A stretch of DNA of 44,214 nt. Source: an uncultured Pelagibacteraceae bacterium (GTDB lineage Bacteria > Pseudomonadota > Alphaproteobacteria > Pelagibacterales > Pelagibacteraceae). Under the pieces are notes generated by a model. That model was not told where the DNA came from. It saw only the letters and a program-made list of their open reading frames with translations, and did no database searches. The translations under genes and the position numbers were made by a program. Location of the stretch: NCBI GenBank assembly GCA_902560225.1, contig CACEKT010000007.1:1-44214 (forward strand), in the 5' to 3' direction. Shown here one piece after another: positions 4,486 to 39,485 of the stretch (position 1 is the stretch's first letter; every line of letters begins with the position of its first letter).

Positions 4486-4516
4486 TGATAATCATTCGCA
4501 TTGAGAATAATTCTCA
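4486..4516 (+). promoter_or_regulatory. Tandem Fur-box-like operators upstream of the iron importer
   Basis: Two 15-base 7-1-7 palindromes lie 16 bases apart, centre to centre. The second, TGAGAATAATTCTCA (4502-4516), is a perfect palindrome. The first, TGATAATCATTCGCA (4486-4500), contains the 11-base core TGATAATCATT of the enterobacterial Fur consensus. Both lie 31-61 bases before the start of the iron-binding-protein gene, where bound repressor would block RNA polymerase. The binding regulator (Fur, or a Fur-like Mur/Irr protein) is inferred; its gene is not in the window. Confidence 0.82.
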
Positions 4517-4546
4517 TTCGCAAAATAACGATACAATAAGGATTAT

Positions 4547-5575
4547 ATGAAAAAAATATCAATTTTATCATTAATTATTTCATTATTTGCTTCAGCTTTT
4601 GCTGTTGCTAATGAAGTGAATATTTTTAATGCAAGGCACTACAAAGCTGATGCTGAGCTTTATGACAAATTTACAGCAGCAACTGGAATTAAAGTTAACT
4701 TAATTAATGGAAAATCAGGAGCTCTTGAAAAAAGAATGATTGAAGAGGGAACTGATTCTGCTGCAGATCTTTATATTACTGCTGATGCAGGTAGATGTGG
4801 AGCTTTCCAAGCAAAAGGTATGACACAAAGTGGATTAGTGTCATCAACAATTAAATCATCTGTTCCAAAAAACTTTAGAACAACTCATTGGGTTGGTGTA
4901 GCTAAAAGAGCAAGAATAATTTACTACTCACCAGAGAGAGTTACAGGAGCTGAATTATCTGGAATGACTTATGAAGGTTTAGCTGATCCTAAGTGGAAAG
5001 GTAGATTAGTAATTAGAAAATCAAGCAACATTTATAACAAATCTCTTGTAGCTTCATTAATTGAAAATAATGGAAAAAAAGCAACAGCTGATTGGGCAAA
5101 AGGTGTTGTTGCGAATATGGCTAGAGAGTCTACTGGTAACGATAGAGCTCAAATTATGGCAGTAGCTGCTGGAGAAGCAGATATTGCTGTAGCTAATACT
5201 TATTATTTAGCACTTATGTTGTCAGGTAACAAAGGTGCAGAACAACAAGCTGCTGCTAAAAAAGTTAAAGCGTTTTTTCCTAACCAACAAGGCAGAGGAA
5301 CACACATGAATATTAGTTGTGCTGCTTTAGTTAAAGGAGCGCCTAACAAAGCAAATGCTATAGCTCTTGTTGACTTTTTATTATCACCAGAATCTCAAGA
5401 ACATTTTACTAATAATACATTTGAGTTTCCAATGATTAGTGGAGTTTCACCAAGTCCATTAGTAGTAAATAATTTAGGATTAGATTTTAATCAAGATCTA
5501 TCAACAAAAGTTTCAAGCTACGGTAAAAATCAAGCTGCTGCTCTTGAAGTAATGACAGCTGCAGGTTGGAAGTAA
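4547..5575 (+). CDS. Iron(III) ABC transporter substrate-binding protein (FbpA/SfuC type)
   Basis: Periplasmic ferric-iron-binding protein of 342 residues. Residues 1-21 are a signal peptide (MKKI, hydrophobic core, cleavage likely after AVA or AVAN). The mature chain starts VNIFNARHYKADAELY, typical of FbpA/IdiA/FutA proteins, and carries the adjacent tyrosines of ANTYYLALML used for Fe3+ coordination. A ribosome site AAGGA lies at 4538-4542, four bases from the ATG. It is the first gene of the operon and sits directly behind Fur-type palindromes, so iron repression is expected. In SAR11 literature this operon is called sfuABC, with the binding protein as SfuC. Function is secure; ferrous versus ferric specificity is inferred from the family. 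Confidence 0.94.
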   Translation: MKKISILSLIISLFASAFAVANEVNIFNARHYKADAELYDKFTAATGIKVNLINGKSGALEKRMIEEGTDSAADLYITADAGRCGAFQAKGMTQSGLVSSTIKSSVPKNFRTTHWVGVAKRARIIYYSPERVTGAELSGMTYEGLADPKWKGRLVIRKSSNIYNKSLVASLIENNGKKATADWAKGVVANMARESTGNDRAQIMAVAAGEADIAVANTYYLALMLSGNKGAEQQAAAKKVKAFFPNQQGRGTHMNISCAALVKGAPNKANAIALVDFLLSPESQEHFTNNTFEFPMISGVSPSPLVVNNLGLDFNQDLSTKVSSYGKNQAAALEVMTAAGWK

Positions 5576-5582
5576 GGAATAA

Positions 5583-5777
5583 GTGAAAAAGAATTTATTT
5601 TATTTTGATAAAAATAATTCTTCTGATGCAAATGGTTCACTAGTAGGTCAGATAACATGTGAACCATGCGCAACAGAGTGTAAAAAAATCAAAAAAAAAA
5701 TAAACAATAGAAAGTTATCAGATATTAAAGACGATGAGGTTTCATACATCCTTTCTCCATTTAGTATTAATAGTTAA
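5583..5777 (+). CDS. Small Cys-rich protein inside the iron importer operon
   Basis: A 64-residue ORF between the iron-binding protein and the permease. It starts with GTG, seven bases after the previous stop, and is preceded by an AAGGA ribosome site at 5574-5578, which supports translation. The centre carries ITCEPCATECKK, a CxxCxxxC pattern, followed by a lysine-rich stretch; there is no signal peptide or membrane segment, so it would stay in the cytoplasm. I do not recognise a family. The cysteines and location suggest a role in handling or sensing imported iron, which is inference. It ends ten bases before a strong RNA hairpin. Confidence 0.6.
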   Translation: MKKNLFYFDKNNSSDANGSLVGQITCEPCATECKKIKKKINNRKLSDIKDDEVSYILSPFSINS

Positions 5778-5787
5778 TTTTCTACGA

Positions 5788-5850
5788 CAATGCTCACAGT
5801 TTAAAATTAGGATTTTTACCCTTTCCTAATAAACGATTGTGAGCATTCAA
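5788..5850 (+). other. Nested RNA hairpin between binding-protein and permease genes
   Basis: Outer arms AATGCTCACA (5789-5798) and TGTGAGCATT (5838-5847) are perfectly complementary, and three further G-U/A-U pairs can extend inward. Inside is a second perfect 7-bp stem, ATTAGGA (5806-5812) with TCCTAAT (5824-5830), closing an 11-base loop. There is no clean T-tract after it. It probably acts as a partial terminator or as a 3'-end block protecting the upstream binding-protein mRNA; a regulatory RNA role is possible. Confidence 0.72.
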
Positions 5851-5893
5851 AATTTCAGTATAAAAAATTTTTTAATACATTATAAAACTAAAG

Positions 5894-7519
5894 ATGTTTA
5901 AATATTTAAATATTTGGTTTTTTGCTTCTTTTTTAATTTCGATTAGTGTGGCAATCCCAATTGTTACTGTATTTTCAAGTTTTTTTGAGGATACTTCAAA
6001 TTATTTTGAAATTCTTAAACAAACTTTTTTTCTTGAATATATATTGAATTCTTTAATTCTTTTAATTGGTGTTTTGCTCTTAACATTTATTTTTGGGGTA
6101 GGTTCAGCATATCTAGTTTCTTTTTATCAATTTCCTGGTGTTAATTTTTTTAAGTGGGCTCTAATACTATCCTTTGCTGTACCTCCTTATATATACGCTT
6201 ATTCTTTATTTGCTTTTTTTGAAAATTATGGAACAGCATTTACAATTTTGAAAACTTTGTTTGGGGAGGCAAATTACAACAAAAATATTCCAAAATTTGA
6301 TGGTATGTTTGGCTTGATATTATCAATATCATTCTCACTGTTTGCTTATGTATATATCCTTGCAAGATCATCATTTTTATATCAATCACAAAGTCTAATA
6401 GAATTAGGAAAAAATCTTGGTTTTTCAAAATTTAAATCTTTTTATTCAATAATATTACCTTCAGCTCGACCAGCTATTGTTGCCGGGTTATCATTGGTCG
6501 CAATGGAAACATTAGCTGAATTTGGTGCAGTAGATTTTTTTTCTGTAAACACTTTAACAACAGGGATTTATAATGCTTGGATAACTTTTGATGACTTAGC
6601 ATTTGCAAATAGAATATCATTTTTTCTTTTAATATTTATCTTTATATTATTTTTGACTGAAAATTTATCCAGAAAAAAAGCAAAATATCATTTAGATGCA
6701 AAAGGTGGATTTAAGAAAAAAGAAAAAACTAAACTTTATGGAAGTAAGTCTTTTTTTGCATTTATTCTTTGTTTTACTTTATTTTTCTTAAGTTTTTTAT
6801 TTCCGTTAAGTCAAATGTTATATTGGACAATTAAATTTCCTGAAAATTTAAATGGTTTACAGATAACTGAACTTTTATTAAACACTTTATATCTAGTTTC
6901 ACTTTCAAGTTTAGTTTTAATAATTTTTGCTTTGATATCTAACTATGGAAATAGAGTTTCAAATAAAAAAATATTAAATATTTTGTCAACTTTTTCAATC
7001 TCTGGTTATGCAATACCTGGAGTTATTCTTGCTATAGCTTTTATAACTTTTATTGCGTGGTTTGATAATAATGTCATTAAATCATTAGGGTTTTTATCTA
7101 TAAAAAAAGTATTCATTGGTTCAATTTCAGGCTTAGTTGTTGTTTATTTTGTAAGATTTTATTCGTTAGCCTTTAATGGAATAAAGTCAGGATATGAAAA
7201 AATAAATATTTCTGTCGATGAAAGCGCTTATCTTCTTGGATATTCTAAGAGTAAAACTTTTTTAAATATTCACATTCCTTACTTAAGAAATTCTCTTTTA
7301 TTTGTTATTATATTAATTTCATTAGAAATAATTAGAGAATTACCAATTACACTTATTTTAAGACCATTTAATTTTGAAACTTTTGCTACTACAGCCTATA
7401 TTTCTGCATCTGAGGACTTATTAGAAGCTGCAGCTGTACCATCTTTGTGCTTAATAGTAATTGCAAGTTTTTTTATTTTGTTTACATCTAAATATATTTT
7501 AAGAGAGAACAATGAATAA
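5894..7519 (+). CDS. Iron(III) ABC transporter permease (FbpB/SfuB type)
   Basis: Inner-membrane permease of 541 residues with two internally homologous halves, each of about six helices, as in FbpB and ThiP. EAA-type cytoplasmic loops that dock the ATPase are seen in each half: LIELGKNLGFSKFKSFYSI near 175-193 and DESAYLLGYSKSKTFLNI near 442-460, the latter followed by RNSLLFVIILISLEIIRELP. It follows the hairpin at 5788-5847 and overlaps the ATPase gene by eight bases, so the two are translationally coupled. With the binding protein and ATPase it completes a ferric iron importer. Confidence 0.92.
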   Translation: MFKYLNIWFFASFLISISVAIPIVTVFSSFFEDTSNYFEILKQTFFLEYILNSLILLIGVLLLTFIFGVGSAYLVSFYQFPGVNFFKWALILSFAVPPYIYAYSLFAFFENYGTAFTILKTLFGEANYNKNIPKFDGMFGLILSISFSLFAYVYILARSSFLYQSQSLIELGKNLGFSKFKSFYSIILPSARPAIVAGLSLVAMETLAEFGAVDFFSVNTLTTGIYNAWITFDDLAFANRISFFLLIFIFILFLTENLSRKKAKYHLDAKGGFKKKEKTKLYGSKSFFAFILCFTLFFLSFLFPLSQMLYWTIKFPENLNGLQITELLLNTLYLVSLSSLVLIIFALISNYGNRVSNKKILNILSTFSISGYAIPGVILAIAFITFIAWFDNNVIKSLGFLSIKKVFIGSISGLVVVYFVRFYSLAFNGIKSGYEKINISVDESAYLLGYSKSKTFLNIHIPYLRNSLLFVIILISLEIIRELPITLILRPFNFETFATTAYISASEDLLEAAAVPSLCLIVIASFFILFTSKYILRENNE

Positions 7520-8573
7520 AAATTTTTTTGAAATTAAAAATGCTTCATTTAAAGTCGGGGGTACAATTAAGGTAAATAACATATCTTTTACAATTGAAAA
7601 TGAGGGTGATATTATTTGCCTTTTAGGACCATCTGGTATTGGAAAAACCACAATTCTTAGATCTATAGCTGGTTTAGAAAAAATTGAGACTGGTTCAATA
7701 AAACTTAAAGGAAAAACTCTTTCATCAGATGAAATAAATATAGAACCAGAAGATCGAAATATATCGCTATCATTCCAAGAAAATTCATTATTTCCTCATT
7801 TCACAGTCGAGGAAAATATTAATCTCGGCAAAATAAGAAAAAATTCAGGAAAAAAAAAGAAAATAAATATTAAAAAAATTATAAAATTACTTAATATTGG
7901 TAAAATATTACAACACTATCCACATCAAATTAGTGCAGGAGAAGCCCAACGAGTATCTCTAGCGAGATCATTAGCCTCTCAACCAGATCTTTTACTTCTA
8001 GATGAACCTTTATCTAATGTTGATCAAAGTTTTAAAGAAGAAATACAAGTTCAGTTAAAAAAGCTCTTAAAAGATTTAAAAATTACAACAATAATTGTTA
8101 CTCATGACTCATATGAAGCTTTTTATCTAGGTAATAAATGTGGAATAATTTTAAATAAACAACTCAAACAATTTGATGACCCTTATAACGTTTATCATTT
8201 TCCTAATTCAGTTGAGGTTGTGAATTTTCTAAATCGAGGAATTTTAATTCCAGCCAAAGTAACTGGGGAAAATACATTAGAAAATATAGATTTAGGAATT
8301 ATTAAAGGTAATTTTATAAAACATTATAAAAAGGGAACAGATGTTAAATTATTATTACAACCAGAAGACTTAGAACATGACGATCAAAGCAATCTAAAAT
8401 TAGAAGTGGTGGATAGAAAATTTAGAGGAACAAATTTTATTTATACACTTAAAACTTCAAATAATACTTTAATACCAGTGTTTGTTCATTCACATCACGT
8501 ACATCAACACGAAGTTGATGAAAAATTCGGAATTAAGCGACCAATAAATATTGATCATATAGTTTGTTTTTAA
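7512..8573 (+). CDS. Iron(III) ABC transporter ATP-binding protein (FbpC/SfuA type)
   Basis: The 353-residue ATPase energises the iron importer from the cytoplasmic face. Walker A GPSGIGKT lies at 39-46, the Q-loop at LSFQENSLFPH, and Walker B and D-loop at LLLLDEPLSNVD, with the switch histidine in VTHDS. Residues about 240-350 form a TOBE-like regulatory domain, as in FbpC. The signature loop reads ISAGEAQR rather than the usual LSGGQ, with Gly-to-Ala and Gln-to-Glu changes. Its start overlaps the permease stop by eight bases. Identification is firm from fold and context. Confidence 0.93.
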   Translation: MNKNFFEIKNASFKVGGTIKVNNISFTIENEGDIICLLGPSGIGKTTILRSIAGLEKIETGSIKLKGKTLSSDEINIEPEDRNISLSFQENSLFPHFTVEENINLGKIRKNSGKKKKINIKKIIKLLNIGKILQHYPHQISAGEAQRVSLARSLASQPDLLLLDEPLSNVDQSFKEEIQVQLKKLLKDLKITTIIVTHDSYEAFYLGNKCGIILNKQLKQFDDPYNVYHFPNSVEVVNFLNRGILIPAKVTGENTLENIDLGIIKGNFIKHYKKGTDVKLLLQPEDLEHDDQSNLKLEVVDRKFRGTNFIYTLKTSNNTLIPVFVHSHHVHQHEVDEKFGIKRPINIDHIVCF

Positions 8574-28224: not shown

Positions 28225-29187
28225 ATGAAAACAATTAAGACTTTACTTGTCGCTGGATTAATTTCTATATTTGTAACTGTTTCATCATTTGCTGAAAAAG
28301 TTAAGATAGGAGATCCAGGTTGGACAGGAGCAACAGCTATTGCAAATTTATTAGCAGCAGTAGTTACAGATAAAATGGGTGGAGAAGCAGAACTTGTTCC
28401 AGGAAACAATACTGCAATTTATGGAGCAATAGATAGAAGCAAAGGTGAAATTGAAGTTCATCCTGACATATGGTTACCCAACCAACAAGCTTATACTAAT
28501 GATTTAGTTCCAAAAGGAACTTTAAAATTAAGTAGCAAACCTTATGAAGGAAACCAAGGTTATTGTGTATCCCAACAGTTTGCAAAAAAAATGAACATCA
28601 CTGCAATTGAAGACTTAGGCAGACCTGAAGTTGTTAAAGCTATGGATAGCGATGGTAATGGCAAGGGTGAGTTTTGGATTGGTGCAGATGGATGGGCTTC
28701 AGCTAATGTTAACCAAGTTAAATTAAGAGACTATGGTTTATATGATGCTGGTATTGAGCCAATAAGAGCTGCTGAAGCAGTTAAAAATGCAAGAGTTCTG
28801 GATTCAATTAAAAAAGGTGAAGGATATGCATTTTATTGTTACAAACCACATGCAATTTGGGGAATGGCTGACGTAGTTATGTTAGAAGAACCAAAATTTG
28901 ACCCAGCTAAGTACAAAATGGTTCAACCTAAAGAAGATGCGGACTGGTATAACAAGTCTTATGTAGCTTCAAAAGATGCACTTAAACAAATCCAAATTGG
29001 ATGGGGCACATCTCTAGAAAAAAAATCACCAGCAATTGTAGAATTCTTTAAGAATTTTCAATTAACAGCAGATGATGTTTCGTCTATGGCATATGCAATT
29101 TCAGTTGAGAAAAAAGACCCAGCTGATGTAGCGAGAGCATGGATGAAAGCAAATAAATCAACTGTTGATGGTTGGTTAGGACTTTAA
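28225..29187 (+). CDS. proX: Glycine betaine/proline-type ABC transporter substrate-binding protein
   Basis: Periplasmic binding protein of 320 residues. Residues 1-23 form a signal peptide (MKTIKTLLVAGLISI, cut after SFA). The mature chain, KVKIGDPGWTGATAIANLL, followed by EVHPDIWLPNQQAY, is typical of OpuAC-family ligand-binding proteins, and conserved aromatics (W, Y, F) suit a cation-pi cage for a quaternary amine. The exact ligand (glycine betaine, proline betaine, choline, DMSP) cannot be read from sequence. It is followed by a perfect 13-bp hairpin, then proV and proW. Confidence 0.9.
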   Translation: MKTIKTLLVAGLISIFVTVSSFAEKVKIGDPGWTGATAIANLLAAVVTDKMGGEAELVPGNNTAIYGAIDRSKGEIEVHPDIWLPNQQAYTNDLVPKGTLKLSSKPYEGNQGYCVSQQFAKKMNITAIEDLGRPEVVKAMDSDGNGKGEFWIGADGWASANVNQVKLRDYGLYDAGIEPIRAAEAVKNARVLDSIKKGEGYAFYCYKPHAIWGMADVVMLEEPKFDPAKYKMVQPKEDADWYNKSYVASKDALKQIQIGWGTSLEKKSPAIVEFFKNFQLTADDVSSMAYAISVEKKDPADVARAWMKANKSTVDGWLGL

Positions 29188-29203: not shown

Positions 29204-29234
29204 TATACTCGGCAATTTAAGATTGCCGAGTATA
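29204..29234 (+). terminator. Perfect 13-bp hairpin between proX and proV
   Basis: Arms TATACTCGGCAAT (29204-29216) and ATTGCCGAGTATA (29222-29234) are fully complementary with a TTAAG loop, followed by TTTTCC. The stem is strong for this AT-rich genome. It lies between proX and proV, where partial termination or mRNA-end protection would raise binding-protein output over the transporter parts. proV starts 22 bases later. Confidence 0.83.
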
Positions 29235-29256
29235 TTTTCCTATATTAAAAGATAAA

Positions 29257-30318
29257 ATGGAATCATCAGATTCAGCTATAAAAATAGAAAATGTATGGAA
29301 AGTGTTTGGCAACACTTCAAACGAAGCATTGAATTCTATTCAAAACCAAGGAATTTCAAAAAATGAAGCATTAGAAAAATATAATTCAGTTATTGGAGTT
29401 TCTGATGTTTCTTTTGATGTAAAACAAGGGGAAATATTCTGTGTAATGGGTCTTTCAGGTAGTGGAAAATCTACATTGGTAAGACATATTAATAGACTTT
29501 TAGAGCCCACATCTGGAAAAATTTTAATTAATGATCAAGATATAATGAAATTTGATCGAGAAAGTTTACAAGAATTAAGAAATAAAAAAATAGGTATGGT
29601 TTTCCAAAACTTTGCCTTAATGCCCCACAGATCTGTTGTTGATAATATCGCAATGCCCCTAGAAATAAGAGGGATAAGTAAAAATGATAGATTAGATGCA
29701 GCTAATAAAATTTTAGATATTGTTGAATTACAAGGTTGGGGAAACAAATTTGCACATGAATTGTCTGGTGGTATGCAACAAAGAGTAGGGCTTGCAAGAG
29801 CATTGGCTGCTGATCCAGAATTCCTTTTAATGGATGAACCATTTAGTGCGTTAGACCCTTTAATAAGAAGACAATTACAGTCAGAATTTATTAAACTTTC
29901 AAAGCAAATGAAAAAAACAACTGTCTTTATTACTCATGATTTAGATGAGGCAGTAAGGGTAGGTCATCGTATAGCAATAATGAGAGATGGCAAAGTAATA
30001 CAAATAGGGACACCTGAAGAAATTGTAGTAAGTCCTGCTGATGAATATGTGGCAGATTTTGTTAAAGGAATTTCAAGACTTAAAGTTGTGCAGGCAAAAT
30101 CAATTATGCAAACTTTTGAGAATTATGAAAAAAAAAATGCCGAAATATCTAAAGATTTAGATAGTGTATATGAGCATGAATTATTAAGTAAACTTATAGA
30201 AGTTTCAAAATCAAATCAAAAACCACTAATAGTAAAGGATAGTAATAAAAAAAATGTTGGTGTGATTACACAATCAGATCTTTTAAAAGCAGTAATTGAG
30301 GGAAGTGATGGAGAATAA
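29257..30318 (+). CDS. proV: Glycine betaine/proline-type ABC transporter ATP-binding protein
   Basis: ATPase of 353 residues for the ProX system. Walker A GLSGSGKST lies at 65-73, LSGGMQQRVGLARAL and the Walker B LLMDEPFSALDPLIR follow, with the switch histidine in FITHDLDEA. The N-terminus has about 30 residues inserted between IENVWKVFG and GVSDVSFDV, as in ProV/OpuAA. The C-terminal part has one recognisable CBS-like unit (PLIVKDSNKKNVGVITQSDLLKA) where E. coli ProV (400 residues) carries two CBS motifs, so osmotic gating may be reduced. It overlaps proW by 11 bases. Confidence 0.92.
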   Translation: MESSDSAIKIENVWKVFGNTSNEALNSIQNQGISKNEALEKYNSVIGVSDVSFDVKQGEIFCVMGLSGSGKSTLVRHINRLLEPTSGKILINDQDIMKFDRESLQELRNKKIGMVFQNFALMPHRSVVDNIAMPLEIRGISKNDRLDAANKILDIVELQGWGNKFAHELSGGMQQRVGLARALAADPEFLLMDEPFSALDPLIRRQLQSEFIKLSKQMKKTTVFITHDLDEAVRVGHRIAIMRDGKVIQIGTPEEIVVSPADEYVADFVKGISRLKVVQAKSIMQTFENYEKKNAEISKDLDSVYEHELLSKLIEVSKSNQKPLIVKDSNKKNVGVITQSDLLKAVIEGSDGE

Positions 30319-31813
30319 ACAAATAAATAATCCTACCAGATCAGAATTAATTACAGAGTTTGTTAAGACAAATCACGAATATTACATTAAAGAATTCCAA
30401 AAAATTGGAAGCAAACCATCTTTTTCGTTCTCATTTAACTTATATGCTGCAATTCTTGGACCAATTTGGTTTGGTATGAGAAATATTTGGAATTGGGCAT
30501 TAGCTTTTTTGATTATTGAAACCTTTTCAGTTGTTCAAATTATAAGAGGTTTATTTGGTAATATTACAGCAGATGCAGTTCAAAAAATAGAGCAGGTTCA
30601 ATCCACTATCGCTTTTAGAAACAAACAATTGGAAGCTGCGATTACAAATAATCCAGACAAAGTCGATGTTTATAAAAGAAATATAAAGTCTTTAGAAGAT
30701 GCTATGCAAGGATATATAGATGAAGTAACTAGAATTGAAGCATCAGCTATCTGGATTACTATTTTTGGATTTATTTTATTAATTTCAATTAAAATAGTTC
30801 AAGGAATTTTAGCTAATTCTGTTATAGAAAAAAGATATTCTGAGTGGTTGTCGGACAAAACGATAAGTCCTGGTATGAAAATCAAAAACTATATCTCAAG
30901 CACTATTTTTACGTCAGTAATTATGTTTTTTTCTGTAGTTCATTATAGTTTTCCAGGCTTTATTACAATTATGGATAATTTTCCAACCCATCCAGATATC
31001 AGATTAACCTCAATAAAATGGGTAGAAACAATTTTTGATTTTGCAGTAATTAAAGGAGACGCATTATTTACAGCAATAACCATTGGAATTAGGTCTGTAT
31101 TAGATTTCTTAGAATTGCTTTTTGTTAAAACTCCTTGGATTGTAATTATAACAACCATAGTAACTTTAACTGGTTTAGCGGCGGGGCCTAGAGCCGCAAT
31201 ATATTCAACAGGATTTTTATGTTACATGGGTTTTTTAGGTTTCTGGGTTAAAGCTATGACTACTCTTGCACTACTTGGAACTGCAGCAGTATTAAGTATT
31301 GCAATTGGTATCCCACTAGGAATTTTTTGCGCAAGACGTCAAAGATTTTATTCAATGATTAGACCTATAATGGATTTTATGCAAACAATGCCTGCATTTG
31401 TTTTTATGATTCCAGTAATTGCTTTCTTTGGAACTGGAAAGGTTGCAGCAGTTATAATCACAATGATATTTGGTGGAACACCAGTAGTAAGATTAACAGT
31501 TCTTGGACTTAGAGGAGTTCCAGAAACAATTAGAGAAGCAGCAATAGCATATGGTGCATCTAAATGGTATTTATTAAGAAAAGTAGATTTACCTTTAGCA
31601 ACACCATCAATTCTGGCAGGAGTTAATCAAACTGTGATGTTAAGTTTGGCAATGGTTGTAGTAGCATCTTTAATTGGTGCGAAAGGACTTGGACAAGATG
31701 TTTTGGAAGCTTTACAATACGCAAATGTTGGACAAGGTATTTTAGCAGGTGTAGCAATTTTATTTGTTGCATTGATTCTTGATAGGGTTGTTCAAGGTAA
31801 AAAAAGAGTTTAA
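30308..31813 (+). CDS. proW: Glycine betaine/proline-type ABC transporter permease with N-terminal extension
   Basis: Membrane permease of about 501 residues; ProW is normally 280-355. The permease domain covers the last ~270 residues, with the EAA loop GVPETIREAAIAYGASKWYLL near 420-440. Residues about 1-210 are extra: a DUF2628-like membrane segment (FSFNLYAAILGPIWFGMRNIWNWAL), a hydrophilic probably coiled stretch (QKIEQVQSTIAFRNKQLEAA) and another helix. ATG 30308 is chosen because GAGGGA lies five bases upstream; the ORF could begin at TTG 30296. It overlaps proV. The extension is not found in standard ProW. Confidence 0.88.
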   Translation: MENKQINNPTRSELITEFVKTNHEYYIKEFQKIGSKPSFSFSFNLYAAILGPIWFGMRNIWNWALAFLIIETFSVVQIIRGLFGNITADAVQKIEQVQSTIAFRNKQLEAAITNNPDKVDVYKRNIKSLEDAMQGYIDEVTRIEASAIWITIFGFILLISIKIVQGILANSVIEKRYSEWLSDKTISPGMKIKNYISSTIFTSVIMFFSVVHYSFPGFITIMDNFPTHPDIRLTSIKWVETIFDFAVIKGDALFTAITIGIRSVLDFLELLFVKTPWIVIITTIVTLTGLAAGPRAAIYSTGFLCYMGFLGFWVKAMTTLALLGTAAVLSIAIGIPLGIFCARRQRFYSMIRPIMDFMQTMPAFVFMIPVIAFFGTGKVAAVIITMIFGGTPVVRLTVLGLRGVPETIREAAIAYGASKWYLLRKVDLPLATPSILAGVNQTVMLSLAMVVVASLIGAKGLGQDVLEALQYANVGQGILAGVAILFVALILDRVVQGKKRV

Positions 31814-33202: not shown

Positions 33203-34258
33203 ATGGCAAATATTAAATTTACTAGTGTACATAAATCATTTGGATCTAATAAGATAATTAAAGATTTTAATCTTAAAGGTAAAGAGGATGAATTTTTAGT
33301 TTTAGTTGGGCCTTCAGGCTGTGGAAAATCAACATTACTTAGAATGATAGCCGGCCTTGAAAAAATTGATGAAGGTGAAATATTTATAAACGATAAAAAA
33401 ATAAATGACCTCCACCCCTCGAAACGACAGACAGCTATGGTTTTTCAATCTTATGCTCTTTATCCTCACATGAATGTATTTGAAAATATGTCATTTGGTC
33501 TAAAAATAGAAAAAAGACCTAAGGAAGAAATTAATTCTAAAGTTATGCAGGCAGCAAAAATTTTAAAAATTGAAGAACTTTTGGAAAGAAAACCAAAACA
33601 ACTGTCTGGAGGGCAAAGACAAAGAGTTGCAATAGGAAGAGCTATAACCCGTAATCCAAAGATTTTTTTATTTGACGAACCTTTATCAAATTTAGATGCT
33701 GCATTGAGAGCAGAAATGAGAGTTGAAATCTCAAAGTTACATAATCAAATTAAAACTAATATGATTTATGTAACACATGATCAGGTAGAAGCTATGACTT
33801 TAGCTGATAGAATTGTTATATTAAATCAAGGCAATATAGAACAAGTTGGAACACCTGAGGAAATATATAACGATCCCGATAATATTTTTGTAGCTCAGTT
33901 TATTGGAACACCCAGGATGAATATATTAGAAATTAGTGAGGAAGATATTATTTCTGAGAATACAATTAAGTTATTTGATAATGATATTAAATTTGAAAAT
34001 TTAAAACTAAAAAAATCTAAACTTTTTATAGGCATAAGACCCGAACATCTAAAAACTGACTTAAAAACAAATTTTACTTTTAAACCAGAAATCGAATTAA
34101 TTGAAAATCTTGGTAATGAAAAAATTGTATATATGAAAAAAGATAAGCATCAATTAAGTGCAAAAATTCCTAGTAATATTAATTTTCAAAATTCAATTGG
34201 TTGTGATTTAAAAAACTTATTTGTTTTTGATCAAAATGGAAAAAGAGCAAGATTTTAG
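33203..34258 (+). CDS. Sugar-type ABC transporter ATP-binding protein (MalK/UgpC family)
   Basis: A 351-residue ATPase with Walker A GPSGCGKST at 36-44, Q-loop MVFQSYALYPHMNV, signature QLSGGQRQRVAIGRAI, Walker B IFLFDEPLSNLDA and switch VTHDQVEAMTLADR. The C-terminal MalK-type OB/TOBE domain (residues ~235-350, including GIRPEH) is present. This is the CUT1 pattern used by maltose, glycerol-phosphate and glycoside importers. The binding-protein, two permease and hydrolase genes follow. ATPase-first order is common in SAR11-type importers. Confidence 0.93.
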   Translation: MANIKFTSVHKSFGSNKIIKDFNLKGKEDEFLVLVGPSGCGKSTLLRMIAGLEKIDEGEIFINDKKINDLHPSKRQTAMVFQSYALYPHMNVFENMSFGLKIEKRPKEEINSKVMQAAKILKIEELLERKPKQLSGGQRQRVAIGRAITRNPKIFLFDEPLSNLDAALRAEMRVEISKLHNQIKTNMIYVTHDQVEAMTLADRIVILNQGNIEQVGTPEEIYNDPDNIFVAQFIGTPRMNILEISEEDIISENTIKLFDNDIKFENLKLKKSKLFIGIRPEHLKTDLKTNFTFKPEIELIENLGNEKIVYMKKDKHQLSAKIPSNINFQNSIGCDLKNLFVFDQNGKRARF

Positions 34259-34402: not shown

Positions 34403-35728
34403 ATGAAAAATATAGTAAAAATATTATGCGTATTTGCATTTTTTTGTACAAATATTTCTTACGCAGATATTAAGTTTTGGACTACAGAAGTCCAGCCAGC
34501 ACGTATGGCTAAACAAGAAGAAATGGCTAAATCTTTTGAAGCTAAAACTGGAATTAAGGTTGAGGTAATTCCAATTGAAGAAAAAGATCTTGGTACTAGA
34601 GCGACTGCTGCAGCTGCTGCAGGTGATTTACCAGATGTAATTTATCATACTTTACAGTATGTTTTGCCTTGGGCTGAAGCAGGTATTTTAGATGTTGATG
34701 CTAATAATGATGTCGTAAAATCTCTTGGTAAAAAAACTTTTGCTCCAGGTGCACTTAATATGGCAAAATCTGGATCTAAAATTGCTGCTGTTCCAGTTGA
34801 TGGCTGGACTCAAATGGTTGTTTATAGAAAAGATCTTTTTGAGCAAGCAGGTTTAAAACCACCAACAAATTATGCAAACATTACTAAAGCAATAGAGACT
34901 TTATCAGGTAATAACATGTATGGTTTTGTTGCTGCAACTAAAACTGATGAAAACTTTATGAGTCAAGTTTTAGAGCATGTATTGTTAGCAAATGGTGTTA
35001 ATCTAGTTAAAAAAGGTGGAACAAAAAAACAAGGAAAAGCTCTTAAAAATTCATTAGAATTTTATAAAGTTCTTGCAAAAGCTAGTCCTCCAGGTGAATT
35101 ATACTGGAAACAGTCTAGAGCATTATACTTTGCTGGAAGAGCTCCAATGATTATTTGGTCACCATTTATTATGGACGAATTGGCTGGATTAAGAGATTCT
35201 GCACCACCTACTTATAATGTTGATCCAACATCAAATGAATTAGCTCAAAAAACTGGTTTTATAACTAATTTTAGTGGACCAAATAATAAAAAAGGTGCTG
35301 CTTGGGCTGATATTAGATATATGGGCGTTACAGCTGATGCTGATACAGATGAAGCTAAACAGTTCATAATGTATTCAATGGATGAAGGATATACAAGCAC
35401 ACTATCAATAGCACCAGAAGGTAAGTTTCCTGTAAGAAGAGGAAACTCAAGTGATCCAAGTGCATTTACAAAAGCATGGAGCAAGTTACCTGTAGGTGTA
35501 GATAGAAAAGCTCCACTGACCGATTTGTATTCTGCAGATGTTATAAACAATATAGTTGCAGGTTTGGATACAGCTAGCAGATGGGGAGTTAAAGAAGGAG
35601 AACTTTCTAGAGCATCTAAAATTATTAACGCTCAATTCTTAAATAGAATCACAAGAGAATACATTGACGATCAAATTTCTGTTGATGAAGCCGTTGATAA
35701 AATAAATGCAGAGTTAGCTAAGTTCTAG
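34403..35728 (+). CDS. Sugar-type ABC transporter substrate-binding protein
   Basis: Periplasmic binding protein of 441 residues, of the extracellular solute-binding family 1. Residues 1-21 are a signal peptide (MKNIVKILCVFAFF, cut after SYA). The mature protein starts DIKFWTTEVQPARM, and AAAAAGDLPDVIYHTLQY near 70-90 and VPVDGWTQMVVYRKDLFEQAG near 131-151 are typical of CUT1 sugar-binding proteins. Ligand identity is open; the downstream GH63-like enzyme points to a glycosyl solute. A strong AAAGGGGGA ribosome site and a terminator right after the gene suggest it is made in excess. Confidence 0.9.
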   Translation: MKNIVKILCVFAFFCTNISYADIKFWTTEVQPARMAKQEEMAKSFEAKTGIKVEVIPIEEKDLGTRATAAAAAGDLPDVIYHTLQYVLPWAEAGILDVDANNDVVKSLGKKTFAPGALNMAKSGSKIAAVPVDGWTQMVVYRKDLFEQAGLKPPTNYANITKAIETLSGNNMYGFVAATKTDENFMSQVLEHVLLANGVNLVKKGGTKKQGKALKNSLEFYKVLAKASPPGELYWKQSRALYFAGRAPMIIWSPFIMDELAGLRDSAPPTYNVDPTSNELAQKTGFITNFSGPNNKKGAAWADIRYMGVTADADTDEAKQFIMYSMDEGYTSTLSIAPEGKFPVRRGNSSDPSAFTKAWSKLPVGVDRKAPLTDLYSADVINNIVAGLDTASRWGVKEGELSRASKIINAQFLNRITREYIDDQISVDEAVDKINAELAKF

Positions 35729-35742
35729 CAATTTAAATTTGC

Positions 35743-35780
35743 AAAAAAAGCGGATAAGATTACTTATCCGCTTTTTTTTT
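35743..35780 (+). terminator. Rho-independent terminator between binding-protein and permease genes
   Basis: GCGGATAAG (35750-35758), loop ATTA, CTTATCCGC (35763-35771), flanked by A7 (35743-35749) and followed by T9 (35772-35780), making a stem of 16 pairs with the A/T flanks. It lies 14 bases after the binding-protein stop, and its last T is directly before the ATG of the permease gene. Transcripts reaching the permeases must read through it. Confidence 0.93.
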
Positions 35781-37040
35781 ATGAAAGATACACTAGCAAA
35801 CACAGAACGAAAAACTGCATATATACTAACCTTGCCTGCAGTTTGTTTAGTTTTTGCTGTCATTTTATTTCCAATTTTTGCAAATATTTGGATTAGTTTT
35901 AAAGAAGTTGAATTAAAAGATATCAGAATTCCTGAACCAAGGGCAAAAAAAATCGTTAAATCTATTTCAGGGGATCCTACTAAAATAAAGATTTTATATA
36001 AATTAAGAAATAGCTCCTTAATTCAAGAGTTAAGAGATGTTTCATTTCAAGACAAATTTCCCAAAAATTTTAAAATTGAAGAATTAGATTCAAGATGTGA
36101 GTTTAGAAAATCTATTTTAAAATGCAAGTTTGGCAATTGGCCAAAAAAATATAAAGAAAATTTCCAAGTAGTATTTCAAACAGATGATGGGTCAAAAATA
36201 GACAAAAAAAAACTTAAATTAATAAAACCTAAATTAGACGGTAAGTCAGACAATATTTTGTTAAACACAAATTTTACCTTAAAAAATTTTAAAAAAGTTT
36301 TATTTGAAAATGAGTTTATAGATTTACTACTAACAACATTTTACTACACTTTTTTTGGTACTATTGGTTCAATTGTATTTGGCATTCTTACAGCTCAAAT
36401 GGTAAATCAAAAATTTTATGGCAGAACATTTATGAGGAGTGTTTTACTTTTTCCATATGTGGCTCCTGTAGTAGCTTTAGCTTATACATGGGAACTTCTA
36501 TTAGACCCAACTAGTGGAACACTAAATAGTTTATTAATAAACTATCAAATTATTGAAACCCCCATAAATTTGCTAGGACAAAAATATGTTGAAATAAATA
36601 TTCTTGGATTTGATTTTAAATTAAGATTAGCTCTGACAACAGTTATAATGTTTGAGATTTGGAGATATTTTCCATTAGCGTTTTTATTTATTCTTGCAAG
36701 ACTTCAAGCTATTCCAAAAGAATTATATGAAGCTGCGGATGTAGATGGCGCCAGTCCATTCCAAAAATTTTTTAAAATAACTCTACCTCAAATTACAGCA
36801 GTAATTTCAATTTTATTTATGATTAGATTTATATGGAACTTCAATAAATTTGAGGATGTTTTTTTACTTACGGGGGGAGCATCAGGCACTAGAACTCTGC
36901 CAATAAATGTTTATCAACAAGGATTTGCAATTTCTGACATTGGAATGGGATCAGCTGTTTCAATGGTAATTGTAGTTTTACTTTTAATGTTTATGTTTTT
37001 TTATTTTAAACTTTTAGGGAAGAGAGTAGATGAGAACTAA
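35781..37040 (+). CDS. Sugar-type ABC transporter permease, MalF-like, with large periplasmic insert
   Basis: Inner-membrane permease of 419 residues; CUT1 partners of this type are usually about 290-330. After helix 1 (ILTLPAVCLVFAVILFP) there is a hydrophilic insert of about 140 residues (about 35-175) with two cysteines in SRCEFRKSILKCKFG, expected in the periplasm, somewhat like the P2 loop of MalF. The permease core follows, with EAA loop ELYEAADVDGASPFQKFFKI. I place the start at ATG 35781, since the longer ORF from TTG 35739 would read through the terminator stem. It overlaps the next permease gene by 11 bases. Confidence 0.9.
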   Translation: MKDTLANTERKTAYILTLPAVCLVFAVILFPIFANIWISFKEVELKDIRIPEPRAKKIVKSISGDPTKIKILYKLRNSSLIQELRDVSFQDKFPKNFKIEELDSRCEFRKSILKCKFGNWPKKYKENFQVVFQTDDGSKIDKKKLKLIKPKLDGKSDNILLNTNFTLKNFKKVLFENEFIDLLLTTFYYTFFGTIGSIVFGILTAQMVNQKFYGRTFMRSVLLFPYVAPVVALAYTWELLLDPTSGTLNSLLINYQIIETPINLLGQKYVEINILGFDFKLRLALTTVIMFEIWRYFPLAFLFILARLQAIPKELYEAADVDGASPFQKFFKITLPQITAVISILFMIRFIWNFNKFEDVFLLTGGASGTRTLPINVYQQGFAISDIGMGSAVSMVIVVLLLMFMFFYFKLLGKRVDEN

Positions 37041-38223
37041 AAATACAATTATATTTTCACTTATATCTACATTTTTCTTAATGTTCTTAATTTCAATTTG
37101 GAAAATATTAGCAACTCTACAGGGTTTAAAAATCCAAAATTTTAATTTACAGATAATTTTTATTCTTGGTTTTTTAATATCATTAGCTCATTTAACTATA
37201 AGTAATAAAATTAGAAATTTTTATAAATCAGTTATTTTTTCTTTAATTTTTGTAATTTGTGATGGCTACTTAATTCAAAAACTTCCTTTATGGTATAATA
37301 TAGGAGTATTTTTAATTTTATATTTTTTTGTAAATCAAATTAAGAAATATAACTTTAATAATTTAAAAGAAGAACATTCCACACAAGTAATATTTTTTGA
37401 TTTCTTAACTTTATTTGGAATTTTATTTTTTTCATTTGTAATACTTTTCCCATTTTACATGATGTTAGTTACAAGTTTTAAAACTCAAATGGCTTTATTA
37501 GTAAATCCTTTAGATTTTAGTATAAATTTTAGTCAAGATATCAAAGATTTATTTAAATCATATTTTGTAATTTTTAAATCTTATAAGTTTGGAAAGTACA
37601 TTCTAACCAGTACAATTGTATCATTGGGAACAGTTATAATAACATTACTTTTTGCAATTCCTGCAGCCTATGCAATAGCAAGACTGAATTTTTTTGGAAA
37701 AACATTTCTTTCAACATCAATATTAATAATTTATATGTTTCCAGCAATAGTACTTGTTATTCCTTTGTATACAGTTTTTAGTCAGCTAGGTTTAAGAAAT
37801 TCAATAGAGGGATTATTAATTGTTTATACAGCTACAACACTACCAGTAGCTATTTATATGTTACAAGGATATTTTAAAAGTATACCAAAAGAGCTAGAAG
37901 AGGCAGCAATATTAGATAAACTTAGTTGGTTTGGTATAATTTTTAAAATTATTATACCTCTAAGTATTCCTGCTATCTCATCAGTTGCATTATACGTGTT
38001 TATGATTGCTTGGAATGAATTTTTATTCTCCTTAATGTTTTTGGATAATCCTAATTCATTTACACTTTCTAGAGCTATACAGTATTTAAGCGGAGATGCA
38101 GAAACCCCAAGACAGTATTTAATGGCTGGATCAGTAGTAGTTACATTGCCAGTTCTATTTATATTTGTTTACTTTGAAAAATATTTAGTCAGTGGTTTAA
38201 CTGCGGGAAGTGTAAAAGGATAA
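37030..38223 (+). CDS. Sugar-type ABC transporter permease, MalG-like, with extra N-terminal helices
   Basis: Inner-membrane permease of 397 residues, about 115 longer than the usual MalG type (about 280). Residues 1-110 form about four additional hydrophobic segments (IIFSLISTFFLMFLISIW, IIFILGFLISLAHL, SVIFSLIFVICDGY, NIGVFLILYFFV) before the core begins near 120. Core features are PFYMMLVTSFK and the EAA loop ELEEAAILDKLSWFGIIFKI, with the typical C-terminal FEKYLVSGLTAGSVKG. Its ATG overlaps the previous permease, and its stop shares a base with the hydrolase start. Confidence 0.9.
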   Translation: MRTKNTIIFSLISTFFLMFLISIWKILATLQGLKIQNFNLQIIFILGFLISLAHLTISNKIRNFYKSVIFSLIFVICDGYLIQKLPLWYNIGVFLILYFFVNQIKKYNFNNLKEEHSTQVIFFDFLTLFGILFFSFVILFPFYMMLVTSFKTQMALLVNPLDFSINFSQDIKDLFKSYFVIFKSYKFGKYILTSTIVSLGTVIITLLFAIPAAYAIARLNFFGKTFLSTSILIIYMFPAIVLVIPLYTVFSQLGLRNSIEGLLIVYTATTLPVAIYMLQGYFKSIPKELEEAAILDKLSWFGIIFKIIIPLSIPAISSVALYVFMIAWNEFLFSLMFLDNPNSFTLSRAIQYLSGDAETPRQYLMAGSVVVTLPVLFIFVYFEKYLVSGLTAGSVKG

Positions 38224-39485
38224 TGACTAGTTTAATTAAAATTGCTCAAAAAATCTTAATAGGCAACAGAAGAAAAGGTTATACATTACCAACAAATAAC
38301 AAACTTTATCCAGCGCAGTGGAACTGGGACTCAGCTTTTATAGCATTGGGTTATTCTTACTTTAACTTTAACTTTGCAATTAAGGAAATCAACACTCTTT
38401 TGGACGGACAATGGAAAGACGGAATGGTTCCTCATATATTGTTTCACGATACAAATACTAGTTATTATCCAAATTACACAGCATGGAATTGTGGTAACAA
38501 AATTCATTCATCCGGTATCACTCAGCCACCAGTTCTTGCAAGTATTTTAAAACAAATTTTAGATAAAAAAAAAATTAACGAAAAGCAAAGTTTGGAAATT
38601 AAGAAAATTGTAAAAAAAATAAAAAAATTTCATGATTGGTTCATTAAATATAGAGATCCAAAAAGAACTGGATTGGTATCAATTCTGCATCCATGGGAAA
38701 GTGGATATGACAATTCTCCAATATGGGATGAACCAATGAAGAAAGTTGTTGTTGAAAAAAATATAAAATACAAAAGAGCAGACAATAAATTAATTAATCC
38801 AGATTACAGACCTTTAGACATTGATTATGATAGATATGTAACAATCAAAAATAATTTAAGAAAAAATAATTATAATCCAAAAAAAATATATAAATCTTCT
38901 TTGTTCAATGTAGTAGATGTTGGATTTAATTCTATTTTTCTTAAAGCAAACAAAGATCTGGTTTCTATACTAAAAAATTTTAATTTAGATTCATTTGATA
39001 TAAGTAAATATATAAAGATAACTGAAAAAAATATTCTAAAATTATTTGATAAAAGAAAAGGAACCTTTTTTTCATTAGATATAAAAAATAAAAAAAAAAT
39101 TGAAATTCCTTCAATTACAAATTATTTTATTTTATTTGCAGATTTAAATAATGAAAAGATTAACAATAAATTAATAAAAAATTTAAAAAAGCATAATCAG
39201 AAAGAAAAGTACTTCTTTTCATCTATAAAACCAAACCATAAAAGTTTCGAAGAAAAAAGATACTGGAGAGGTCCAGTTTGGATTAATTGTAATTGGATTT
39301 TATATAAAGGATTAAAAAATAAAGATCATTTATTTTCAAAAAAAATAAAAAATCTAACTATTAAATTAATCGAAAAAAAAGGAATTTATGAATATTATAG
39401 CTGTAAAAATGGTAAACCAATGGGAGCAAGTAATTTTTCATGGTCTGCAGCTCTTTATTTAGATTTAATATTAAGTAAAAATTAA
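38223..39485 (+). CDS. GH63-like mannosyl-/glucosylglycerate hydrolase
   Basis: A 420-residue glycoside hydrolase of the (alpha/alpha)6 barrel type, similar in length and motifs to bacterial mannosylglycerate/glucosylglycerate hydrolases (GH63). AQWNWDSAFIALG is at 31-43, DGMVPHILFHD follows, LHPWESGYDNSPIWDEP near 155-171 carries E159, and GPVWINCNWILYKGL begins near 350, ending PMGASNFSWSAALYLDL. There is no signal peptide, so it acts on imported solute in the cytoplasm. It is the last gene of the importer operon, with one-base overlap. Substrates could be glucosylglycerate, mannosylglycerate or a related alpha-glucoside. Confidence 0.82.
   Translation: MTSLIKIAQKILIGNRRKGYTLPTNNKLYPAQWNWDSAFIALGYSYFNFNFAIKEINTLLDGQWKDGMVPHILFHDTNTSYYPNYTAWNCGNKIHSSGITQPPVLASILKQILDKKKINEKQSLEIKKIVKKIKKFHDWFIKYRDPKRTGLVSILHPWESGYDNSPIWDEPMKKVVVEKNIKYKRADNKLINPDYRPLDIDYDRYVTIKNNLRKNNYNPKKIYKSSLFNVVDVGFNSIFLKANKDLVSILKNFNLDSFDISKYIKITEKNILKLFDKRKGTFFSLDIKNKKKIEIPSITNYFILFADLNNEKINNKLIKNLKKHNQKEKYFFSSIKPNHKSFEEKRYWRGPVWINCNWILYKGLKNKDHLFSKKIKNLTIKLIEKKGIYEYYSCKNGKPMGASNFSWSAALYLDLILSKN

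Follow-up and report, generated by a model that had tools for sequence, protein, structure and literature searches.

How can a single operon supply much of a soluble binding protein and only little of the membrane channel that it serves? SAR11 bacteria are among the most abundant cells on Earth, with proteomes in which binding proteins are plentiful. The question is raised by a contig of an uncultured Pelagibacteraceae bacterium (assembly GCA_902560225.1, contig CACEKT010000007.1, positions 1-44,214), which carries three operons for importers of the ATP-binding cassette (ABC) type, one each for iron, a betaine-type and a sugar-type substrate; the whole stretch of 44,214 nt is called the window here. 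An initial annotation had pointed to a strong hairpin between the gene of the substrate-binding protein (SBP) and a membrane-component gene in each operon, and had proposed a design selected repeatedly, with a common scheme of partial termination or 3′-end protection that makes one operon yield very unequal amounts of its products. The three hairpins are instances of a wider rule that places a stem behind SBP genes of different transporter classes. They probably mark the 3′ ends of abundant SBP messages within transporter operons, where partial termination at stems with a U tract and 3′ protection by stems without one would raise SBP output.

Position, fold and conservation of the three hairpins

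All hairpin arms were recovered exactly where they had been placed, and Pfam confirms that the three importers are SBP-dependent. The iron hairpin (arms 5789-5812/5824-5847) folds into a 13-bp outer stem and a 7-bp inner stem closed by an 11-nt loop. The betaine hairpin (29204-29216/29222-29234) consists of 13 bp and the sugar hairpin (35743-35758/35763-35778) of 16 bp, both paired at 100%. Folding energies of the iron, betaine and sugar hairpins are −23.8, −19.3 and −23.1 kcal/mol (z of −6.5, −5.4 and −6.4), and for each of the three none of 200 dinucleotide shuffles was as stable as the real sequence. The hairpins are real and far beyond chance. Their stems are followed by U runs of 9 (sugar), 4 (betaine) and 2 (iron), so that only the sugar hairpin, for which the initial annotation had given 16 pairs and nine T, has a U run like that of a terminator; the T run reaches 35780 and the AUG follows at 35781. 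The open reading frame (ORF) finder had called a TTG start at 35739, which would put the hairpin within the permease gene; the gene is taken to start at the AUG. A generic terminator scan was uninformative (6 hits vs 6.8 expected and 8 vs 7.5 expected), picking up the betaine stem and missing those of iron and sugar.

The placement between an SBP gene and a membrane-component gene holds as first described for the sugar operon, where a permease gene comes next. It needs correction for the other two: the ATPase gene follows the betaine hairpin, and a 64-codon ORF separates the iron SBP gene from its hairpin. The stems are unrelated in sequence by inspection, as had been claimed, and a window-wide Rfam scan gave a single match, the iron hairpin, which scores above the cut-off of the RNA family potC (RF01751; Table 1).

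Conservation of the stems in relatives had been set beforehand as a check, and loss of the stems was not what was found: all three are kept in the relatives fetched. Compensating changes at orthologous junctions, which had also been proposed as a check, are seen in the betaine stem, while the iron stem has turned over wholesale and the sugar stem is almost invariant. The best 80 of 230 betaine loci were kept and reduced to 55 distinct junctions, giving 56 aligned rows with the window. In these, 98.1% of stem cells hold standard pairs, the core is well conserved, and both sides have changed at 6 of the 13 pairs (37 double-change cells vs 8.6 in shuffles). Another 24 cells carry a one-sided change, in every case to G-U, which points to an RNA rather than a DNA element; when the alignment is slid to other registers, only 26-46% of cells pair.

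For the iron operon, 110 loci yielded 92 distinct junctions, three of them without a stem by the search used (L124 is truncated, L209 and L251 imperfect). Among the remaining 89 hairpins there are 70 different pairs of arms. At least 8 bp form between an arm and its cognate partner in 96% of cases and in 22% of cross combinations, the latter being the informative figure because the arms were selected by pairing. A stricter search still found the stem in 86 of 91 regions, vs 13.0 in shuffles. In the sugar operon, 65 genomes had a match, and the loci at the 30 best places gave 23 distinct junctions. The stem core is nearly invariant in them and so says little on pairing, and in all 23 the AUG stands 0-3 nt behind a T run of 5-9.

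Stems behind binding-protein genes as a wider rule

Junctions between same-strand neighbour genes were searched for uninterrupted stems of 9 bp or longer that contain three or more G-C pairs. The sample from the genome of the window comprised the surroundings of its ABC permease genes and the window itself, with ORFs called crudely, and that from a relative, G106, comprised 400 kb, evenly spaced. Overlapping genes and gaps above 350 nt were excluded, the gaps below 21 nt (42 and 94, respectively) contain no counted SBP, and a called start other than ATG was replaced by the first in-frame ATG within 75 nt. At the iron locus, the gap from SBP to small ORF was dropped and that from small ORF to permease was counted as the SBP junction.

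In the own genome, a stem stands in 11 of 13 SBP junctions vs 0 of 32 others (Fisher 8e-9), and in G106 in 9 of 10 vs 4 of 65 (Fisher 5e-8), with SBP labels that are biased in that Pfam scans were aimed largely at genes already seen with hairpins. Dinucleotide shuffles of the SBP junctions yield stems in 0.26 of 13 and 0.36 of 10, respectively. A hydrophobicity screen for secreted soluble proteins among 97 control genes, which is not a Pfam scan, flagged six, and none of these looked SBP-like by eye over its first 45 residues. The SBPs span the Pfam families SBP_bac_1/3/5/8, OpuAC, Peripla_BP_4/6 and DctP. For DctP, the SBP of tripartite ATP-independent periplasmic (TRAP) transporters, a stem was found in 18 of 20 evaluable junctions from six SAR11 genomes (22 loci, L262 and L270 not evaluable; this search ran 40 nt into the next ORF and had no control of its own). 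By eye, a strong U-run hairpin stands at both TctC SBPs too; the crude gene caller put it inside the next ORF (at L188, before its Pfam-matched part), and the two were kept as misses. The claim of repeated selection is thus strengthened, as the rule extends to nearly all sampled SBP junctions and to TRAP transporters.

The stems fall into two classes. Six of the 11 in the own genome (sugar 1, 2 and 3, dipeptide 1, sbp8 and TRAP 1) and six of the 9 in G106 are closed or followed by five or more T in a row. The other own-genome stems, which include iron, betaine 1 and 2, dipeptide 2 and amino acid, have runs of at most 4. The class mostly belongs to the operon: the run is at most 4 in 54 of the 56 betaine rows (5 and 6 in the other two), and the sugar rows are uniformly of the U-tract type. 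Measured from the stop codon, 8 of the 11 own-genome stems start at a distance of 10-16 nt and the other 3 at 26-35 nt, roughly clear of a terminating ribosome. From stem end to next start there are 2, 5, 11, 19, 20, 22, 27, 31, 46, 47 and 68 nt, and gaps so short leave little room for a promoter behind the stem.

The iron-operon hairpin and the potC family

By covariance-model score, the iron hairpin belongs to the potC family; the betaine and sugar hairpins gave no match above cut-off in the whole-window scan. Across 151 genomes of the genus, scanned under stricter filters that lose weak matches, potC was found above cut-off in 16, always on the same strand and 208-217 nt after the iron SBP. 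Two weaker matches lie at the same place (237 nt) and elsewhere. The iron SBP itself has a match in 107 of the 151. Among 20 iron loci scanned singly, three scored above cut-off, one below and 16 had no match, and the stem was nearly always there. Either the Rfam model covers part of the family only, or the other hairpins are positional equivalents of a different make.

Between the iron SBP and the hairpin at the potC position lies a small ORF of about 57-64 codons (in the window and in L001-L020, L101-L130 and L193-L252). The window copy, at 5583-5777, has matches in 24 of 61 genomes. Its consensus is C.pC..EC.KI..riN.RklS, with CxxC in 86 and CxxCxxxC in 80 of the 92 distinct junctions. It matched no Pfam or NCBIfam family, and no literature search was made for it; from its sequence it looks like an unannotated microprotein of the iron operon.

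The gene behind the hairpin is less constant. Hairpin and permease are separated in 11 of the 92 junctions by a gene of roughly 180 codons (97 for L123), and in three more a gene of the same type follows the hairpin with the permease outside the fetched piece, a total of 14 (L002, L003, L017, L108, L111, L114, L118, L122, L123, L128, L198, L213, L242 and L243). Four of the five scanned are redoxins, and L017 has no Pfam match. That the hairpin stays with the upstream small ORF while the next gene changes favours a 3′ element of the upstream message.

The loop carries UUACCC and/or UCUCC-like motifs in 61 of the 89 iron hairpins. A kissing interaction of the UCUCC loop with a downstream AAGGCGGA was considered and rejected: loci with GGGG-type loops (e.g., L018) retain AAGGCGGA, and no coupling is seen by eye. 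A second recurrent element, AUUAUAAGGCGGAUUAUAAU, stands just before the permease in some iron junctions (e.g., L013, L231 and L232, by eye). By eye again, it could form a fold that places AAGGCGGA in the loop and the start codon near or in the stem. Outside the iron operon, a hairpin at L275 6843-6945 (G106, minus strand) lies between inositol-phosphatase-like and ROK kinase genes; as in potC, the loop contains UUUUACCC and its edge is spanned by UCUCC.

The pyrimidine loop presumably resembles the anti-Shine-Dalgarno end of 16S rRNA. A speculative and rather improbable extension holds that potC is a specialised iron-operon form of the SAR11-wide SBP 3′ element. As an anti-Shine-Dalgarno mimic or a target of CspE/CspL, its pyrimidine loop of the UUUACCC or UCUCC type would then make what becomes of the sfu message depend on iron supply, and the CxxC small ORF would be a translated sensor or leader. 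The cold-shock proteins CspE/CspL were proposed for SfuC by Smith 2010 (PMC2864753; here and below, papers are cited from the part of their text that was available).

The features of the three operons are collected in Table 1. The gene order of the iron operon matches sfuC-sfuB-sfuA-azlC of Candidatus Pelagibacter ubique (Table 1 of PMC2864753). The pattern of the AT-rich repeat upstream of the iron SBP, taken from the window itself, is unique in the window. We take this repeat to resemble a Fur/iron box. Behind the sugar permeases (38223-39485) lies a gene for a mannosylglycerate-hydrolase-like glycosidase (PF22422, 283 bits), hinting at a glycerate-type compatible solute as the substrate of the sugar-type importer.

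Table 1. Operon genes, hairpins and upstream repeat in the window
Feature	Position	Strand	Basis
AT-rich repeat upstream of iron SBP	4487..4518	+	read from sequence
Iron-type ABC SBP, sfuC-like	4547..5575	+	PF13416/PF13343
Small ORF, 64 aa, motif CxxCxxxC	5583..5777	+	conserved; without Pfam or NCBIfam match
potC RNA, Rfam RF01751	5784..5852	+	62.5 bits vs cut-off 44; loop with UUUACCC
Iron ABC permease, two BPD_transp_1 stretches	5894..7519	+	PF00528
Iron ABC ATPase	7512..8573	+	PF00005
Betaine-type SBP (OpuAC; choline or trimethylamine N-oxide also possible)	28225..29187	+	PF04069
Betaine-operon hairpin, 13-14 bp, UUUUCC after, no long U tract	29204..29234	+	fold, covariation
Betaine-type ABC ATPase, gene after hairpin	29257..30318	+	PF00005; TIGR01186 proV subfamily above cut-off
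Betaine-type ABC permease	30296..31813	+	PF00528 (scanned from 30335)
Sugar-type ABC ATPase, upstream of SBP	33203..34258	+	PF00005
Sugar-type SBP	34403..35728	+	PF01547/PF13416
Sugar-operon hairpin, 16 bp, U9: canonical intrinsic terminator shape	35743..35780	+	fold, orthologs
Sugar-type permease 1	35781..37040	+	PF00528; start backed by ortholog AUGs
Sugar-type permease 2	37030..38223	+	PF00528

Proposed mechanism, alternatives and known systems

Position, strength, selective association with SBP genes, conservation and compensatory change of the hairpins are directly supported; termination, protection and the resulting protein ratio we infer from the sequence. In the proposed mechanism, transcription of the operon would start within the genes that precede the hairpin or at a promoter upstream of them. 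Stems of the U-run type, those of the sugar operon and dipeptide 1 among them, would act as leaky intrinsic terminators, ending most transcripts behind the SBP gene and letting a smaller share of polymerases continue into the translocator genes. Stems without a long U run (betaine, iron/potC, amino acid and others) would act as decay stops: after cleavage or Rho-type termination downstream, 3′-5′ exonucleases would halt at the stem, the SBP message would survive and the translocator part would be lost. The stable, U-less shape fits the iron and betaine stems. In the sugar operon, where the stem abuts the permease AUG and leaves no room for a ribosome-binding site (RBS), permease translation would be expected to drop further. 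The net result would be much SBP and little channel from one operon, and the stems probably let the cell make far more of the former than of the latter. In Candidatus P. ubique under iron limitation, induction falls along the operon from sfuC (16.0) through sfuB (10.4) and sfuA (5.0) to azlC (2.1), and SfuB peptides were not observed, which the authors blame in part on solubility (PMC2864753). The co-induction supports one transcription unit, and the falling values are compatible with loss at the hairpin, which they do not prove.

A number of observations weigh against this reading. Since a T run of at least 5 is present in only part of the stems, a single mechanism cannot fit all; the common scheme first envisaged is accordingly borne out in part and too simple as stated, with about half of the own-genome stems carrying a U tract, half lacking a long one, and the iron stem being an orphan potC behind a small ORF. 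The sfu gradient is broken by SAR11_1233 (3.36), and its values are fold inductions, not amounts (PMC2864753). In the betaine alignment, further pair types show no excess (13 vs 12.9 in shuffles), 14 of 720 cells are unpaired, 10 of them in one outer pair, and a single clade of 10 rows gives many of the double changes, so the cells are not independent events. Stems also follow non-SBP genes in G106, namely those for a symporter, GroEL, MetK and an inositol-phosphatase-like protein, and two G106 SBP cases (L282 and L293:906) may merely end a transcription unit. The TRAP type DctP2 (L182 4268-4294, L265 and L266) has no stem in a gap of only 27-28 nt and is a consistent exception to the rule. 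Outside SAR11, a stem was found in 6 of 23 same-strand SBP_bac_8 junctions of other Alphaproteobacteria and, among those with 40 nt or more between the genes, in 6 of 12. These counts come from 39 class-level genomes including the own one, in which 30 loci were read; five with genes on opposite strands and one that lacked a gene call were left out, as was L312 of the own genome, and gene calls in the GC-rich genomes are crude and possibly wrong. The arrangement thus occurs beyond SAR11 and looks denser within it.

Were the hairpins ordinary complete terminators and the translocator genes served by their own promoters, there would be no operon-internal control. The U-run stems (sugar, sbp8, sug2 and sug3) do look like strong terminators, and two G106 SBP cases leave 124 and 53 nt free after the stem. 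Such promoters would nonetheless have to overlap the stem itself where the next start is so near, as it is in every sugar ortholog and in the 6 of 11 own-genome cases with at most 22 nt in between. Promoter-like matches in the scanned regions occur at chance level (110 vs 110.1 expected and 104 vs 111.8 expected); among them, two weak ones (29209-29236 and 29217-29246; 9/12) overlap the betaine hairpin and count against the proposed mechanism. Moreover, sfuB and sfuA are induced together with sfuC under iron limitation (PMC2864753). Own promoters for the permeases are unlikely given the lack of room, and complete termination as a whole is distinctly improbable. That the inverted repeats act as DNA, as operators or repeat-derived palindromes, is the most far-fetched of the explanations. 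Operators can take the form of perfect inverted repeats with short loops, and the betaine core is well conserved, yet its 24 G-U cells and the 70 versions of the iron stem are what RNA pairing would be expected to produce and a protein-bound DNA site would not. The stems of different operons share no sequence by inspection and so do not look like a repeat family, and both DNA explanations were rejected on the G-U variants and the unrelated stems.

For the iron hairpin alone, it is conceivable, if unlikely, that potC is mainly a 5′ cis-regulator of the following gene (permease or peroxiredoxin-type), for instance an iron-responsive riboswitch or a translation switch in which the loop pairs with the RBS. 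Weinberg 2010 (PMC2864571) lists potC in a table as "marine only", probably RNA and probably cis-regulatory, with riboswitch status open. The loop motifs would suit such a role, and 13 of 74 loci show a complementarity of 7-10 nt between a UUACCC-type loop and the stretch directly before the permease start. The iron loop of the window, however, has no such complement, and mean pairing is 11.7 for cognate, 10.4 for non-cognate and 10.1 for shuffled combinations, other matches of that length being mostly A-U or G-U rich. With strong pairing so restricted and a mean barely above non-cognate, loop-to-RBS pairing was rejected as a general potC mechanism. Furthermore, 28 of the 89 hairpins keep the stem without either loop motif (in a few, the stem splits the motif), and the stem that remains with the small ORF in the 14 junctions with another gene behind it fits a 3′ element at least as well.

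If the hairpins mark 3′ ends of SBP messages as proposed, a stem that follows almost all sampled SBP genes, irrespective of transporter class, would give a streamlined genome a cheap, regulator-free way to set the ratio of SBP to channel. Metatranscriptomic counts of SBP genes may then not represent the whole operon. The abundance of PotD in SAR11 proteomes is described in PMC8437039. The fixed position in the iron operon turns potC, an unassigned Rfam family, into a testable element, and an iron-responsive SBP 3′ element, if true, would give an orphan RNA class a function.

The arrangement has close parallels in other bacteria. The malE element of E. coli belongs to the repetitive extragenic palindrome (REP) family. 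No such family was recognised here among the 11 own-genome stems, which are unrelated by inspection, no formal genome-wide repeat search having been made. Dar and Sorek 2018 (PMC5927463) describe decay-resistant, U-less 3′ hairpins in E. coli, where the stabilised gene is always the SBP gene in the five ABC operons named, and cite Newbury 1987 for the protective hairpin between malE and malF. As there, a U-less hairpin stands between SBP and channel gene, the SBP part being the stable part of the message in E. coli. In contrast to the malE element, the SAR11 stems look mutually unrelated and about half of those in the own genome carry U runs; for the SAR11 stems, protection from decay is proposed. 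Wu 2022 (PMC9045158) reports internal intrinsic terminators after SBP genes in cellulolytic Clostridia, with a stem-loop in 193 long gaps of clusters with a 5′ SBP gene (87.3%), termination measured at 20.7-96.1%, unequal messages and tails from U-rich to U-poor. The likeness is a single stem-loop in the gap after the SBP gene, here at 11 of 13 and 9 of 10 junctions and in the iron operon only after the small ORF. Unlike that work, which concerns ABC importers of Clostridia and, by prediction, E. coli, the rule described here concerns SAR11, includes TRAP and tripartite-tricarboxylate systems and has potC as one of its stems, with termination being proposed.

The iron hairpin resembles potC of Weinberg 2010 in its score, in standing before a transporter permease and in being followed by a redoxin gene in some relatives. 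Beyond the main-text table of that paper, potC is tied here to one place, at a fixed distance from the iron SBP and behind the CxxC small ORF; many more SAR11 genomes have positional equivalents that do not reach the Rfam cut-off. An earlier placing of potC in the iron operon was not found in the literature searched, that table included. Meyer 2009 (PMC2704228), a survey of SAR11 intergenic RNA motifs, includes the gap preceding sfuC in its table, and its available text makes no mention of sfuB. Nor did the matches listed include a report of the SBP-stem scheme for SAR11 or TRAP systems, in a search that left subscription journals largely outside. Since the scheme has been published for Clostridia and E. 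coli (PMC9045158 and PMC5927463), the principle is known; what is apparently new, within the literature searched, is how widely the rule extends and the location assigned to potC.

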